A stretch of 64,000 bases of DNA from an uncultured SAR86 cluster bacterium (GTDB taxonomy: Bacteria > Pseudomonadota > Gammaproteobacteria > Magnimaribacterales > D2472), in NCBI GenBank assembly GCA_902631785.1, contig CACOZT010000002.1, positions 82,996 through 146,995 of the forward strand, written 5' to 3'. A program made the translations under genes and the position numbers. Positions 40,943 through 48,309 of this stretch are shown piece by piece. Position 1 is the first letter of the stretch; every line of letters starts with the position of its first letter. The notes under the pieces were generated by a model. That model had not been told where the DNA came from. It did not search any database and worked only from the letters and a program-made list of their open reading frames with translations.

Positions 40943-41947
40943 CTAACTTAAAACAATTGAGGGTTCAATTTCTAGGCTTACATTAAAAGTATCAAAAACT
41001 TGCTGCTTTATATGATCTGCGAAATCTATAACATTATGTTGACTAGCATTTTTATTTGTAACTATTACAAGAGAATGATTTTTATATATCTCAACGTTGT
41101 CAAATTTTTTTAAATCATTTTTAATTAATTCAATAAGCCTTGCTGATCCAACTTTAACTTTAGAAGAATCGATCTCCCATAGAACCAAATCATCAAATGA
41201 AAATTTATTTGTCTTAATATTTTTTTTATTCATAACAGTATTTTTAAAAAAGCTACCTACATTTGGCACTACCGATGGATCGGGTAAGGTAAAAGACCTA
41301 ATACTTGTTATCATCTTTGATACATCATGCGTGGTCATATTTTTTGGATTTATATTGTTATTGGTCATGTATTTTTTAACTGACTCATAAGTTAGGTTAT
41401 GTTCTTGACATATGTCTGTATGAAAATCTATGTTATATATCACAAAATTATTATCTTTAAATATTGAATGCCTATAGGAAAAATAACAATCGTCTTTACT
41501 TAAAGTACTGAATTTATTGTTGATGTAATCATAGCAGTCAACACTCTTGATTAAATTTGAAACCTCCTGGCCGTAAGCTCCTATATTTTGAATAGGTGCA
41601 GCTCCAACACTACCAGGAATAGAGGATAAATTTTCAAATCCCATGATATTGTTATTAATTGTAAAATTTACAAACTCATGCCAATTAACCGAAGAGCCAG
41701 CTGAGATAGTATTATCTGTTTTATTAATATTAATATTTGTAAAGTTGGGTTTTACAACAATACCTTGATAAAAGTCTGGTAAGACAACGTTTGTTCCTTC
41801 ACCTATAACAAGCACAGGTGCGTCCTTAGATTTTACAAATTTATGAAATTCAATAAAATCATCCTTATCATTTAGTTCGATGTAGCAATCTGCAATAGAG
41901 TTTATTTGTAATGAATTACTGATTAATTTTTTATTATAAATTTTCAT
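40943..41947 (-). CDS. murB: UDP-N-acetylenolpyruvoylglucosamine reductase
   Basis: VLVIGEGTNVVLPDFYQGIVV, GFENLSSIPGSVGAAPIQNIGAYGQE, YRHSIFKD, VPNVGSFFKNT. Confidence 0.95.
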   Translation of the reverse strand: MKIYNKKLISNSLQINSIADCYIELNDKDDFIEFHKFVKSKDAPVLVIGEGTNVVLPDFYQGIVVKPNFTNININKTDNTISAGSSVNWHEFVNFTINNNIMGFENLSSIPGSVGAAPIQNIGAYGQEVSNLIKSVDCYDYINNKFSTLSKDDCYFSYRHSIFKDNNFVIYNIDFHTDICQEHNLTYESVKKYMTNNNINPKNMTTHDVSKMITSIRSFTLPDPSVVPNVGSFFKNTVMNKKNIKTNKFSFDDLVLWEIDSSKVKVGSARLIELIKNDLKKFDNVEIYKNHSLVIVTNKNASQHNVIDFADHIKQQVFDTFNVSLEIEPSIVLS

Positions 41948-42653
41948 TTTTTAAAAAATTAAGAGCATTTTCAACATCCTCTTGAGTGTCAATACCATTA
42001 GGAATTTGTTCGTCATATTCAGATACATATATAGAATAATTATTTTCAAGAAATCTTAGCTGCTCTAGCTTTAAAGACAATTCGCTTTTAGTTGGTTTTA
42101 ATTTTACTAATTCATTTAATGTTTTGAATGAATATCCATAAATGCCTATATGTCGTTTTGGATCTTCTATGTTGCCAGTTCTTACAAAATTTGTTGCATA
42201 ACCGTTCATATCGGTTTCGACTAAAACACAATTTTGGTTTGTTAGTTCATAATCTGATTTTATTAATGTTGAAACTGTAATCACATCACACTGATTTTTG
42301 TGATATTCATTTATTACTTTAATTACTAGATCACTTGGTATAAATGGCTCATCACCCTGAAGATTGAGAATTAATGTGTCCTCATCTAAATCTAACTTTG
42401 TAGCTGCTTCACAAATTCTATCTGTACCAGAAATGTGTTCAGATGATGTCATTATCACATTCTTTGAAATCTCAAATACATTTTGCTTAATTAAATTTGA
42501 ATCAGTTGCAACATAAGTATTTTCAGTGATACTTAATGCATTCAAAACTGCTCTTTGGATTATTGATTTGCCTTGAAGGTCTATCAAAGGTTTATTTTTT
42601 AATCTGGTAGAGCCAATTCTTGAAGGAATTAGAATAAACGTATTTTTGATCAT
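41934..42653 (-). CDS. kdsB: 3-deoxy-manno-octulosonate cytidylyltransferase
   Basis: FILIPSRIGSTRLKNKPLIDLQGKSIIQRA, LILNLQGDEPFIP, RHIGIYGYSF, KLEQLRFLENN. Confidence 0.95.
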   Translation of the reverse strand: MIKNTFILIPSRIGSTRLKNKPLIDLQGKSIIQRAVLNALSITENTYVATDSNLIKQNVFEISKNVIMTSSEHISGTDRICEAATKLDLDEDTLILNLQGDEPFIPSDLVIKVINEYHKNQCDVITVSTLIKSDYELTNQNCVLVETDMNGYATNFVRTGNIEDPKRHIGIYGYSFKTLNELVKLKPTKSELSLKLEQLRFLENNYSIYVSEYDEQIPNGIDTQEDVENALNFLKNENL

Positions 42654-42654
42654 A

Positions 42655-45414
42655 TTATGAAATCAATTTAAGTTTTTTATCTAAACTATCAATAAATTTA
42701 CTATTTAAGTCTGCATCAATTTTTAAATACCAAATTTTATTATTATCAAAATCTTTACATTTCGAAGCATCTTTTTCTGTCATAACTATTGGTAAATGAT
42801 CTAAATAAAAAATGTCACTAGATAAGAAATTATGATGATCAGGAAAAGGATGACGAATTATGTCAAATCCTAACTTATCTAAAAGGTCAAAAAACCTTCC
42901 AGGATTACCAAGTCCAGCAACAGCATGAACTTGCTTATGCATTGGCCAATTCTCTATAGAATATGATTTTCCAGATTTCAAATGAACAAACTTTGTTGGA
43001 CTAATATTCATTAAATACTCACCCTCTTCTGTTGGCCCACTATTATTTACAATAAAATCAACAGTATCTATTCTTTTAGATGATTCTCTTAATGGTCCAG
43101 CAGGAAAAGTTAAATTATTTCCAAATCGTCTTTTTCCATCAATAACCGCAATTTCAACTTGTCGACCCATTTTATAATGCTGAAGTCCATCATCCGAAAT
43201 AATTACGTCACAGTCATGGTTTTTCGAGAGTTTTTTTACAGCTCTGACTCTATTTTTATCAATATAAAAAGGGACATCTAACTTAGCTAAAATCTGAGCC
43301 TCATCTCCAGTATGTTTTACAGGAGTTTCACTTGTTACTTGAAGAGTTTCTTTAAATTTACCTCCATATCCCCTGCTTACAATTCCAGGTTTATAACCTT
43401 TATTTTTTAATTCAGTGACAATATATTTAACTAGTGGAGTTTTTCCAGTTCCTCCAATTGTTAAATTTCCAACAACTACAATTGGAACCTCAGATTTAAA
43501 GGATGTAATTTTATTAGTAAGAAACCTTTTTCTTCTGAGAGAGGTTAAATATGAAAAAATGAGAGAAAAAGGATAAAGAAGATATAGCCATAAACTTTTT
43601 TTATACCAACTATCAACTACAAAGCTTGTTGAATCATCATCTACATATTCAGGCATGAAAAGTTGAACAGATTTTGAGGTTCTGCTTTTTGTAACTGGCG
43701 AGTCTTCAAATTTATTTTTATAAAGTGAATGATAGACTGCTTTATTTTCGATTAATTCTTTATGAGTGCCTGTTTCTACGATTGAACCATTATCAAGAAC
43801 AATAATTTTTGAGGCATTTTCAATGGTTGATAATCTATGCGCAATAACAATTGTTGTTCTATCAGTAATTAACTTTTCCAAAGCCTCTTGAACAATTAAT
43901 TCTGATTCTGTATCTAATGCAGAAGTTGCCTCATCCAGTATGATTATTGGTGAATCTTTGTAAAATGCTCTTGCTATAGCAAGCCTTTGTCTTTGTCCAC
44001 CTGATAACAAAACACCATCATCACCAATTTCGGACTCATAGCCTTCAGGTAGATTTTCAATAAATTCAGAGCAACCTGATAATCTTGCTGATTCCTTTAA
44101 TTTTTCTACATCAATTTCGTCATCACCATATGCAATATTTTTTGAGATTGTGTCATTAAATAATGAGGGAGATTGATTAACAATTGATATTTGAGATCTT
44201 AGATGATCTAAAGAAAAATCATTTACTGAAATTCCATCAATTAAAATTTCGCCTGATGAGTGGTTGTAAAATCTAGGTATCAAATTAGCAATTGTTGATT
44301 TACCAGAACCAGATTTACCAACAATCGCAACTGTTTCATTTTTATTTATTGAAAGATTTATATCGTTAAGAATTTGTCCACCAGTTTCATAAGAAAAACT
44401 TACATTGTTAAATTCAATATTTCCTTCAATTTTATCTTTGATTTCACCAAGATCAGTTTCAATATCTTGATCAAGTTGTTCAAAAATTTCATTAGCTGCT
44501 GCTAAACCCTTTTGAACGATGATATTAATATTTGATAATTGCCTAATTGGTTTTGCCATTAAGCCTGCAGCTGTAAAAAATGCAACAAAAGTCTCTGCAT
44601 CGAGTGAAATACCTAACTGAGCTCCCAATGCAAAATAAGCAACTATTGATAGAGAAATAGATACAAGCACCTGAATTATAGGAGTTGCCATATTTCCGGT
44701 AGCTTCAAGCTTAAGATTTTGATTTTTGTTTGATGTATTTGCCTCTAAAAATCTTGAATTTTCATAATCCTGCGCATTAAAACTTTTAATTTCAACATGT
44801 CCGTCTACTGCCTCAGAGGCTATATGCGTGACATCTCCCATGGCTGTTTGTATTTTCTTTGCAAGTTTTTTTAATCTCTTGCCTGCAACATATACTATCA
44901 ATGCTATTAATGGAGCCGTACCAATTAATAAAAGAGTGAGTTTAAAATTTAAAATCATTAAATATATAAATAATCCAATTAATAAAAAACCCTCTCTGAT
45001 TAGTGTCTTAACTGCATTTGAAGCTGCGCCAGAAACTTGTGTAGTTGTAAATGTAATTCTGTTAATGAGTTGTCCTGACTGATTTGCATCAAAATATGAT
45101 TTTGGAAGATCATGAAGTTTTTGAAATAATTCTGCACGTAAATCATGTACGATACCGAAACCAACTCTGGACATGAAGTAATTTCCAACAAAAAATCCAA
45201 CCCCTCTTCCTAGTGCAATTAATATAAGAGAAAGTGCAAGGAAAGAGCTAAAGTTTTCTTCTTCTGAATTAATGAAGCCGATAATTCTTCTTATCCATTC
45301 AACAGCTGCAATATCAGCAAAAGCAAAGCTTATAAATCCAATAACACTTATAAAGAAAGACCATTTATATCTAAATGTATAACCAAGTAGCCTTTTTAAA
45401 CTTCCAGTTTTCAT
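42655..45414 (-). CDS. msbA-lpxK: Single-ORF fusion: lipid A export ABC transporter MsbA (N-terminal) + tetraacyldisaccharide 4'-kinase LpxK (C-terminal)
   Basis: 919 aa; MsbA TM domain plus VAIVGKSGSGKSTIANLIPRFY Walker A and LLSGGQRQRLAIARAF signature; then LpxK SWYKKSLWLYLLYPFSLIFSYLTSLRR, VVVGNLTIGGTGKTPLVKYIV, HHNFLSSDI, MTEKDASKC; no in-frame stop between. Confidence 0.93.
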   Translation of the reverse strand: MKTGSLKRLLGYTFRYKWSFFISVIGFISFAFADIAAVEWIRRIIGFINSEEENFSSFLALSLILIALGRGVGFFVGNYFMSRVGFGIVHDLRAELFQKLHDLPKSYFDANQSGQLINRITFTTTQVSGAASNAVKTLIREGFLLIGLFIYLMILNFKLTLLLIGTAPLIALIVYVAGKRLKKLAKKIQTAMGDVTHIASEAVDGHVEIKSFNAQDYENSRFLEANTSNKNQNLKLEATGNMATPIIQVLVSISLSIVAYFALGAQLGISLDAETFVAFFTAAGLMAKPIRQLSNINIIVQKGLAAANEIFEQLDQDIETDLGEIKDKIEGNIEFNNVSFSYETGGQILNDINLSINKNETVAIVGKSGSGKSTIANLIPRFYNHSSGEILIDGISVNDFSLDHLRSQISIVNQSPSLFNDTISKNIAYGDDEIDVEKLKESARLSGCSEFIENLPEGYESEIGDDGVLLSGGQRQRLAIARAFYKDSPIIILDEATSALDTESELIVQEALEKLITDRTTIVIAHRLSTIENASKIIVLDNGSIVETGTHKELIENKAVYHSLYKNKFEDSPVTKSRTSKSVQLFMPEYVDDDSTSFVVDSWYKKSLWLYLLYPFSLIFSYLTSLRRKRFLTNKITSFKSEVPIVVVGNLTIGGTGKTPLVKYIVTELKNKGYKPGIVSRGYGGKFKETLQVTSETPVKHTGDEAQILAKLDVPFYIDKNRVRAVKKLSKNHDCDVIISDDGLQHYKMGRQVEIAVIDGKRRFGNNLTFPAGPLRESSKRIDTVDFIVNNSGPTEEGEYLMNISPTKFVHLKSGKSYSIENWPMHKQVHAVAGLGNPGRFFDLLDKLGFDIIRHPFPDHHNFLSSDIFYLDHLPIVMTEKDASKCKDFDNNKIWYLKIDADLNSKFIDSLDKKLKLIS

Positions 45415-45815
45415 TTTTCAATAGTTCTTATTTGAACTTCACTAAATCCATATTTATTTAATATATCCATCACTGTAACAACCCATATATGCAAACTATC
45501 AGATTCAGCACTCAGAATTAATGCATCACCATTATTTTCTAATTCAAAAATAGCTTGCTCTAAATCATCAATATTATCTATATTAAAAACTTTATTATTA
45601 ATAAATATAGATCCGTTATTAATTATTACAATCTCATTAGAGCTTTGGACAGTTTTATATTGAAATGATTCAGTTTTTGGAAGTTCCAAAGAAAGAAATT
45701 GAGAATCACCAACTTTTGAAGTGACTACAAAAAATATTACTAATAGAAATACTATATCAATTAAAGGCGTTATTTCTATTGAAAATGATGATTTGTTATC
45801 TGAAATAAATTTCAT
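45411..45815 (-). CDS. exbD: ExbD/TolR-family biopolymer transport protein
   Basis: SIEITPLIDIVFLLVIFFVVTSK. Confidence 0.92.
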   Translation of the reverse strand: MKFISDNKSSFSIEITPLIDIVFLLVIFFVVTSKVGDSQFLSLELPKTESFQYKTVQSSNEIVIINNGSIFINNKVFNIDNIDDLEQAIFELENNGDALILSAESDSLHIWVVTVMDILNKYGFSEVQIRTIEK

Positions 45816-46411
45816 TTGTTTATTACATCAATAAAACCAGATACTTCTTTTTGAAGATTTATTAACAAGTATTTAATTTTTTGTTCAAAGTATTTATGAA
45901 GCACTAATCCAGGAACGGCAATTAGTAATCCAAATGCAGTAGTAATTAATGCTTGCGAAATACCTGCAGCCAGTAAATCAGGATTTGCACCTGAGGTTTC
46001 TGTTAACCCAGTAAATGCTTTAATCATACCTACAACAGTACCTAATAATCCTAAAAGAGGACTTATTGTTGCAAGAGTGCCTAGCATTGTAAGATTTCTT
46101 TCTAAACTATATTTAACTTCTATTGCTTTTTCTTCTATTTTTGACTCTAAGTTTTCTCGCTGAAGATCTTTATACTTTAAGCAATTTATCAACAAAAAAC
46201 CAAGAGATGAGAGACTAGAAATTTCTAAAGCTTGTTTTTTTGACATTAAGTCATTTTTTACTAAATTCATAATTTGATTTGAGAGACCTTTTGGTGAAAC
46301 TAATCTATTTTGCAGAAACCAAGATCTCTCTATTGAAATTGTAATTATCAGCACGCTACATGCTAATAATGGCCACATGAAAGGCCCACCAGCAGTTATA
46401 AATTCATTCAT
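45812..46411 (-). CDS. exbB: MotA/TolQ/ExbB proton channel family protein
   Basis: LTMLGTLATISPLLGLLGTVVGMIKAF, ISQALITTAFGLLIAVPGLVLHKYF. Confidence 0.93.
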   Translation of the reverse strand: MNEFITAGGPFMWPLLACSVLIITISIERSWFLQNRLVSPKGLSNQIMNLVKNDLMSKKQALEISSLSSLGFLLINCLKYKDLQRENLESKIEEKAIEVKYSLERNLTMLGTLATISPLLGLLGTVVGMIKAFTGLTETSGANPDLLAAGISQALITTAFGLLIAVPGLVLHKYFEQKIKYLLINLQKEVSGFIDVINK

Positions 46412-47084
46412 TGTTAATACTCAAATTAGAATTTTCTAATGTATATACTTTATCAAATAATTTAATAAACTCATTATCGTGAGTCGCTGTGATTAAAGCA
46501 ACATCATATTTTTTTGATATATCAAAAATTAGGTTTTGAATATTAGCTGAATTTTCTATATCAAGATTTCCTGTTGGTTCATCTAAAAACAAAAATTTTG
46601 GATTATTGATTATAGCTCTTGCAATGGCTGCTCTTTGTTTTTCTCCGCCAGACAATTTCCACGGTAAGTGATCTTTTCTTTTGTAAATATCTATTGATTT
46701 CATTAAGTCTTTTGCAATAGCCTTACTTGAAGCATTCAAAGATTTTTTTAATATAAGCGGCATGTGAATATTCTCTTCAATAGTTAAATCATCTAATAAG
46801 TGATGAAATTGATAAACAAAACCAAAGTTGTTTAATCTTATTTTACTAAGATCATTTTTAGATAATTCTGTAAAATTTTGATGGTCTAGTGAAATTTCTC
46901 CTGAAGTAGGTTTGTCTAATCCAGCAAGTATGTGAAGTAAAGAAGACTTGCCAGCTCCTGAAATACCTGTAATGGCAATAGTATCAGTCTGATTAACAGT
47001 TAAATTAATATTGTTTAAAACATTCAAAACATCATCACCAATTTCAAAAGATTTAGTAATATTGTTACAAGTTAGTTTACTCAT
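46404..47084 (-). CDS. lolD: Lipoprotein-releasing ABC transporter ATP-binding protein
   Basis: ITGISGAGKSSLLHILAGLDKPTSGEI, LNNFGFVYQFHHLLDDLTIEENI, LSGGEKQRAAIARAI. Confidence 0.95.
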   Translation of the reverse strand: MSKLTCNNITKSFEIGDDVLNVLNNINLTVNQTDTIAITGISGAGKSSLLHILAGLDKPTSGEISLDHQNFTELSKNDLSKIRLNNFGFVYQFHHLLDDLTIEENIHMPLILKKSLNASSKAIAKDLMKSIDIYKRKDHLPWKLSGGEKQRAAIARAIINNPKFLFLDEPTGNLDIENSANIQNLIFDISKKYDVALITATHDNEFIKLFDKVYTLENSNLSINNE

Positions 47085-48309
47085 GTCTTAAAATTTCTAC
47101 AGGATTGAGTCGTACCGCTCTTAAAGATGGAATTAATGATGAAATGATACTTATTAAAAATGAAACTAGGCAAATCAAAAATATCTGAGCAGTGTTTATA
47201 TAATATGGAAAATAATTAATAAAATATGCTTCAAGGAGATTTCTATCAAGAATAGTTTCTATAATAGAAATAAAGTTGTTCAGGTTATATATCAAAATAA
47301 ATCCTAATAATATACCCATAAAAATACCTATAAAACTAACCATTATTCCCTGAGTAAAAAATATTAATATTATTTGCTTATTGCTTGCGCCAAGGGTTAA
47401 AAGAATTCCAATCTCTCTTTCTTTCGACTTTACCGTCATTACAACAGTAGATAAAACAAGTATTGAAGCAACAGCAACGATTAGAAATAACATTAAACTT
47501 ATTAATAATTTCTCAAACTTAATTGCCTCAAAAAGGGTTCCATGGGTCTTCTTCCACGAAGTATAAGTTAAATTATTATCATTAATATCATTCAATGCAT
47601 TTTGAGTAATAAGATCTGCACTGAATAAATTATTGGTTTTTATTCTAATACTAGTTGTTTGGAATGAGTTTAGATTTTTTATTTTTTGAGCAGTTGAGTG
47701 TGAAATCAATGTTAAATATTGATCTATTTCAGTTTTTAACTCATATATACCAACTATCTCTAAGCTTACTGATCTTGGAAAAGATCCAATTAAAGTTGTT
47801 TTAATATCTGCAGTAGTGATATTAATTTCATCACCAACATATGCGCCTATTTGTGCTGCAAGCAATGAACCAATAATAATTGAATTATCTTTATTAAGAT
47901 CATTTAAACTACCAAGAAGCATATACTCTGGAATAATCGATAAATATTTTTCTTTAGACGGATCAACCCCGATTATCGAAACACCCTTAGTTTCGTAGGC
48001 AGATGAAATTATTCCTTCTATATTTATATATGCTGATGCTTCAAGTACATCTGAATTTTTTTTTACATTGATAATTAGATTTTCATAATTATCAATTGGC
48101 TCAACTGATGTAATTACTGAGTGAGGAATAACGCCAAGAATCCTGTCTTCAAGCTCTTTTTCAAACCCATTCATGACAGAAGTGACAACTATTAAGCTTG
48201 AAATACCTATTGAAAGGCCAATTATTGCCAATAAGGTTGTAAAAGAAAATGTACCTCCTCTATTAGATCTAAGGTATTTATAACCTAATTTCAGAGATAT
48301 AGAAGACAC
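47077..48309 (-). CDS. Lipoprotein-releasing ABC transporter permease (LolC/LolE family)
   Basis: LGYKYLRSNRGGTFSFTTLLAIIGLSIGISSLIVVTSVMNGFEKELEDRILG; RLNPVEILRHE C-terminus. Confidence 0.93.
   Translation of the reverse strand: MSSISLKLGYKYLRSNRGGTFSFTTLLAIIGLSIGISSLIVVTSVMNGFEKELEDRILGVIPHSVITSVEPIDNYENLIINVKKNSDVLEASAYINIEGIISSAYETKGVSIIGVDPSKEKYLSIIPEYMLLGSLNDLNKDNSIIIGSLLAAQIGAYVGDEINITTADIKTTLIGSFPRSVSLEIVGIYELKTEIDQYLTLISHSTAQKIKNLNSFQTTSIRIKTNNLFSADLITQNALNDINDNNLTYTSWKKTHGTLFEAIKFEKLLISLMLFLIVAVASILVLSTVVMTVKSKEREIGILLTLGASNKQIILIFFTQGIMVSFIGIFMGILLGFILIYNLNNFISIIETILDRNLLEAYFINYFPYYINTAQIFLICLVSFLISIISSLIPSLRAVRLNPVEILRHE

Follow-up and report, generated by a model that had tools for sequence, protein, structure and literature searches.

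MsbA is established, across its family, as a homodimeric flippase. How the synthesis of lipid A is matched to its export is a long-standing question, as a shortage and a build-up of intermediates are both harmful. In E. coli, msbA and lpxK are adjacent in the operon ycaI-msbA-lpxK-ycaQ, but they are separate genes with a 4-base overlap. The two genes are co-transcribed (PMC10328246). LpxK is a membrane-surface kinase with its substrate site facing the membrane, and its product, lipid IVA, is modified by WaaA, LpxL/LpxM and core transferases before MsbA flips it (PMC6286764). Modelling of the E. coli pathway assigns flux control to LpxK when feedback is taken into account, and the substrate of LpxK is the signal for degradation of LpxC; the copies per cell are estimated at 206 for MsbA and, by assumption, about 432 for LpxK (PMC4412817).

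In the SAR86 locus studied here, msbA and lpxK have the same order as in E. coli, but they are joined into one gene. The window is the whole stretch of DNA that was analysed, 64,000 nucleotides, and its features at this locus are as follows.

47077 to 48309, minus strand, LolC/LolE-like permease gene
46404 to 47084, minus strand, LolD-like ABC ATPase gene
45812 to 46411, minus strand, ExbB/TolQ-like gene
45411 to 45815, minus strand, ExbD/TolR-like gene, with a 4-base overlap with the ATG of the fused gene
42655 to 45414, minus strand, fused msbA-lpxK gene, 919 codons and a stop in a single frame, from the ATG at 45414 to the last base of the stop at 42655
43702 to 45414, minus strand, MsbA part, residues 1-571, an ABC exporter half-transporter (by TIGR02203 and by mapping its residues onto MsbA of E. 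coli K-12)
43624 to 43701, minus strand, linker, residues 572-597, coding, outside both E. coli proteins and under purifying selection
43654 to 43656, minus strand, candidate internal start, in-frame ATG at residue 587, not conserved by the conservation count
42658 to 43623, minus strand, LpxK part, residues 598-919 (by PF02606, TIGR00682 and alignments to 4ehx and E. coli)
41934 to 42653, minus strand, kdsB (CMP-Kdo synthetase)
40943 to 41947, minus strand, murB

No stop or change of frame lies between the two halves, i.e., MsbA and LpxK are not separate reading frames. The open reading frame and the family profile matches thus agree with the original prediction of a single continuous MsbA-LpxK frame of 919 residues; its frame and coordinates were right, while the minus strand was left unstated. 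It had also placed the fusion point at the lengths expected of the separate proteins. This is what the alignment to E. coli K-12 gives, as the last residue of MsbA aligns to residue 571 and the first residue of LpxK to residue 598, with a linker of 26 residues between them. Judged by these profiles and alignments, the gene is a fusion of a complete MsbA and a complete LpxK, both at normal lengths. It is the only full-length msbA-lpxK copy in the source genome.

The MsbA half (residues 7-570) matches the MsbA model TIGR02203 over positions 3-571 of 572, with 634.7 bits against a cut-off of 602, while the threshold of the narrower enterobacterial model NF008381 is missed (534.9 vs 867). Mapping to the E. 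coli K-12 protein shows that the ATPase residues are present (Walker A K372, Q414, Walker B E495 and the H-loop H526). R70, R140 and R291 correspond to R78, R148 and K299 of E. coli MsbA, which we take to be the basic ring that holds the lipid A phosphates. The MsbA half is thus similar over its full length to E. coli MsbA (PDB 9bd6, 5tv4 and others), and transport of core-lipid A is its predicted function. The difference is at the end of the protein: a separate MsbA would end at about residue 571-582, whereas the C-terminus of the SAR86 protein continues into LpxK. Two more ABC exporter half-transporters adjoin on opposite strands in contig G002:C14 (L035, L036), with 32-33% identity to this MsbA.

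The LpxK half (residues 611-915) matches PF02606 with 316.8 bits against a cut-off of 27, and it also exceeds the cut-off of TIGR00682 (241.6 vs 91.95 bits). All the catalytic residues are kept. In the alignment to LpxK of A. aeolicus (PDB 4ehx), K658, T659, D704, E705, D741, D742, H746 and H860 correspond to K51, T52, D99, E100, D138, D139, H143 and H261, residues that have been shown to matter in that enzyme (PMC6286764). The similarity to 4ehx covers the full length, with the Walker A, GDE, DDGLQH and PDH motifs conserved; however, the SAR86 LpxK has no start of its own and is joined to MsbA via the linker. At its N-terminus, the alignment with E. coli LpxK begins at W6, which corresponds to W603. 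The key residues are intact in both halves, and the two are probably active. The topology of the fusion is supported as consistent, since the end of MsbA and the start of LpxK are both cytoplasmic. An AlphaFold model of the fused protein has a mean pLDDT of 53, being built on an alignment of 23 close relatives; it is poor because the alignment held close relatives only, and it is too weak for domain contacts. This low-confidence model is compatible with coil in the linker and with a long helix at the N-terminus of LpxK, a predicted membrane helix at about residues 608-633.

A search of related genomes found the same fusion, as an unbroken frame, in essentially every SAR86 genome with a complete gene, well outside what chance would give. 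The LpxK part is carried by 159 of the 203 genomes of the order, and the genomes that lack a match are mostly incomplete drafts. Among the 150 matches listed for the order, 145 are, by a manual count, in open frames of 892-966 codons. The five shorter frames are at contig ends (G030, G033, G101, G138) or, in G077, contain several frame breaks; another apparent exception, G066, is also at a contig end. The fusion spans four families and 22 genera of SAR86. At the genus level, every complete copy is one frame. At the family level there is a match in all 10 genera, and all complete copies are one frame except the broken G077. Almost all the named relatives, which share 62-91% identity in LpxK, are genomes of the SAR86 cluster, and this assigns the window to SAR86, an order of streamlined marine Gammaproteobacteria that is abundant in the ocean.

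An in-frame stop or a frameshift in relatives would have spoken against the fusion. The junction contains none in 55 SAR86 genes, and the sole broken complete copy, G077, has its breaks within MsbA and not at the junction. An assembly or sequencing artefact is a general possibility for uncultured genomes, but the same frame is found in about 150 independently assembled SAR86 genomes and in 27 named records, and single-cell, metagenome and closed assemblies concur. This rules out such an artefact for practical purposes, and we give it a negligible probability.

The linker is also conserved as protein. Over the linker region (residues 566-612), in-frame stops occur in none of the 55 distinct SAR86 genes, compared with 45/55 and 55/55 for the other two frames. 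The dN/dS pooled over 12 close pairs is 0.14 for the linker, 0.04 for MsbA and 0.07 for LpxK. The linker is therefore translated, with selection acting on its amino acid sequence. The fusion has been kept in SAR86 by selection that acts on the protein and extends to the linker. In the tree of both parts together the fusions of SAR86 group as a single clade (SH-aLRT 99); this phylogeny places a single fusion event in the ancestor of the order, i.e., the fusion is ancestral to SAR86.

The gene order lolC-lolD-exbB-exbD-[msbA-lpxK]-kdsB-murB is conserved across SAR86 except for exbB-exbD, which is present in some lineages only. In some SAR86 families (L139, L140, L142-L145), exbB-exbD is not detectable between lolD and msbA-lpxK, unlike in the source family. 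The fusion is specific to one pair of this operon. msbA and lpxK are in one frame in 77 of 77 SAR86 loci, while for the pairs lolC-lolD, lolD-exbB, exbB-exbD, exbD-msbA, lpxK-kdsB and kdsB-murB a shared frame is never seen in the 46-78 SAR86 loci that hold both members; some of the loci in these pair counts represent one genome that occurs in two collections. As none of the other tested pairs is ever fused, general gene packing alone does not explain the fusion.

The fusion is not confined to SAR86. Among 370 sampled Gammaproteobacteria, an unbroken fused frame was found in six non-SAR86 genomes (G264, G284, G543, G455, G245 and G374), of which G264 was left out as proof, having ambiguous bases, one of them in the linker. 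The genus g233 carries the fusion in 27 genomes (25 complete and two partial copies), the family f160 in six of six genomes and the family f86 in three of four. There are thus several other fused lineages besides SAR86, at least three of them with the fusion in multiple genomes. In g169, the sister genus of g233, the stop between msbA and lpxK is retained. No further fused cases were found in a phylum sample of 299 at a strict threshold, by which divergent cases could be missed.

The original prediction had proposed to compare the phylogenies of each domain, and either half gives the same fused groupings. In the trees of MsbA alone and of LpxK alone, the fusions of SAR86, g233, f160 and f86 each form one group, and the two halves have therefore travelled together. 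In the tree of both parts, five changes are needed for the fusion. One shared origin of all fusions is rejected by the AU test (p-AU 2.3e-5). However, f86 and f160 may share one event (p-AU 0.45), and G245 (family f47) lies next to SAR86 (SH-aLRT 87) and may share its event. It is safe to state that these trees imply at least three origins, probably four or five. The fusion of two complete proteins is real, conserved and recurrent.

Independently recurring and fixed gene fusions are classic evidence of two proteins working together, and separate fusions in several bacterial groups point to a real advantage in keeping this pair together. The main rival is a neutral or streamlining fusion, in which loss of the msbA stop was tolerated, went to fixation a single time, in the ancestor of SAR86, and is now hard to revert, while the halves work as if separate. 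Many Gammaproteobacteria without the fusion (L168, L169, L175-L184) have just one stop codon between msbA and lpxK, which share a frame, and the open frame of lpxK starts directly after this msbA stop. The mutational step to fusion is therefore short, as one point mutation is enough, and the recurrence may partly reflect this opportunity. SAR86 genomes are also small with a tightly packed operon, both parts retain their normal lengths, and in SAR86 alone a single fixed ancestral event followed by ordinary purifying selection would look identical. The other packed pairs of the operon, however, never fused, the linker is constrained, and the fusion was fixed independently in lineages with genomes of 2-5 Mb, so not in streamlined ones alone. 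We therefore regard a neutral origin as possible but doubtful.

It can also be asked whether LpxK passes its 4'-phosphorylated precursor straight to the attached flippase, as the original prediction suggested. The two are physically tethered, both active sites are cytoplasmic and the lipid site of LpxK faces the membrane (PMC6286764). However, the known pathway has WaaA, LpxL/LpxM and the core transferases working after LpxK and ahead of MsbA, and MsbA is poor on early intermediates (PMC6286764). Kdo addition is expected in SAR86 as well: the fused gene is adjoined by kdsB, whose product supplies the Kdo donor used in the following step, and this suggests that Kdo is produced. In the loci examined, there are no matches to waaA, waaC, lpxL, lpxM, lpxA, lpxB or lpxD near msbA-lpxK. 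The objection is reasoned from the characterised pathway; a direct hand-over to export is poorly supported and appears very unlikely.

A mixture of products, where free LpxK also arises from a translation start near residue 587 or by proteolytic cleavage in the linker, is considered highly improbable. The ATG at 43656 is indeed residue 587 and would yield the predicted free LpxK of 333 aa, and the low-confidence model predicts coil for the linker. Yet the codon aligned to this ATG is ATG in only 21 of the 55 SAR86 genes, and 17 of the 55 have no ATG, GTG or TTG at all within residues 566-612. For this reason a conserved free LpxK from this start is unlikely, and the expected product does not stand as a conserved one. 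None of the internal starts of the fused gene has a Shine-Dalgarno motif. This was dropped as an argument against internal starts after a survey of the 64-kb window, where a Shine-Dalgarno-like motif precedes the start of only one of 42 ATG-started open reading frames. As the other 41 also lack it, its absence is uninformative and no evidence against mixed products; in the source SAR86 lineage, translation seems to be initiated mostly without such a motif.

We suggest, with a probability of about 0.55, that the benefit of the fusion is an obligate 1:1 ratio and a shared location of the flux-setting kinase and the export pump; the fixed 1:1 ratio is the property that we infer to be selected. 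The product would be one bifunctional membrane-bound polypeptide, in which the cytoplasmic C-terminus of a flippase half-transporter leads through a flexible linker to the LpxK 4'-kinase. The dimeric flippase would then carry two kinases, and the proposed two LpxK per transporter is supported if MsbA dimerises as usual. The fusion would set the ratio of kinase to pump at 1:1, with both at the same spot of the inner membrane. Supply of the lipid A precursor could then not outrun export, entry of the precursor would be tied to export capacity, and separate control of two genes would be unneeded. Co-production and co-location of this kind would not require a direct hand-over from kinase to flippase, as other enzymes are expected in between. 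For E. coli, this predicts that MsbA and LpxK, although separate, work close together or at a fixed ratio.

It can be speculated further that lipid A synthesis and export form one physical unit, with the fusion as its visible core, where LpxK activity and the MsbA transport cycle sense each other, although we consider this unlikely. If it were true, the kinase might for example stay off until the pump is free, and Gammaproteobacteria would have repeatedly hard-wired a coupling that is merely transient in E. coli.

MsbA and LpxK are known families. In the open literature searched, no published description of an MsbA-LpxK fusion was found, nor of its order-wide fixation or repeated origin, and the paper on SAR86 isolates (PMC11582366) mentions neither msbA nor lpxK; as a domain architecture, the fusion may already be catalogued elsewhere. 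For annotation, it should be considered that the fused gene can be labelled as one half only. Another possible fusion, of exbB and exbD, is seen in the non-SAR86 genome G401 (L133), where matches to ExbB and ExbD are in one open frame.
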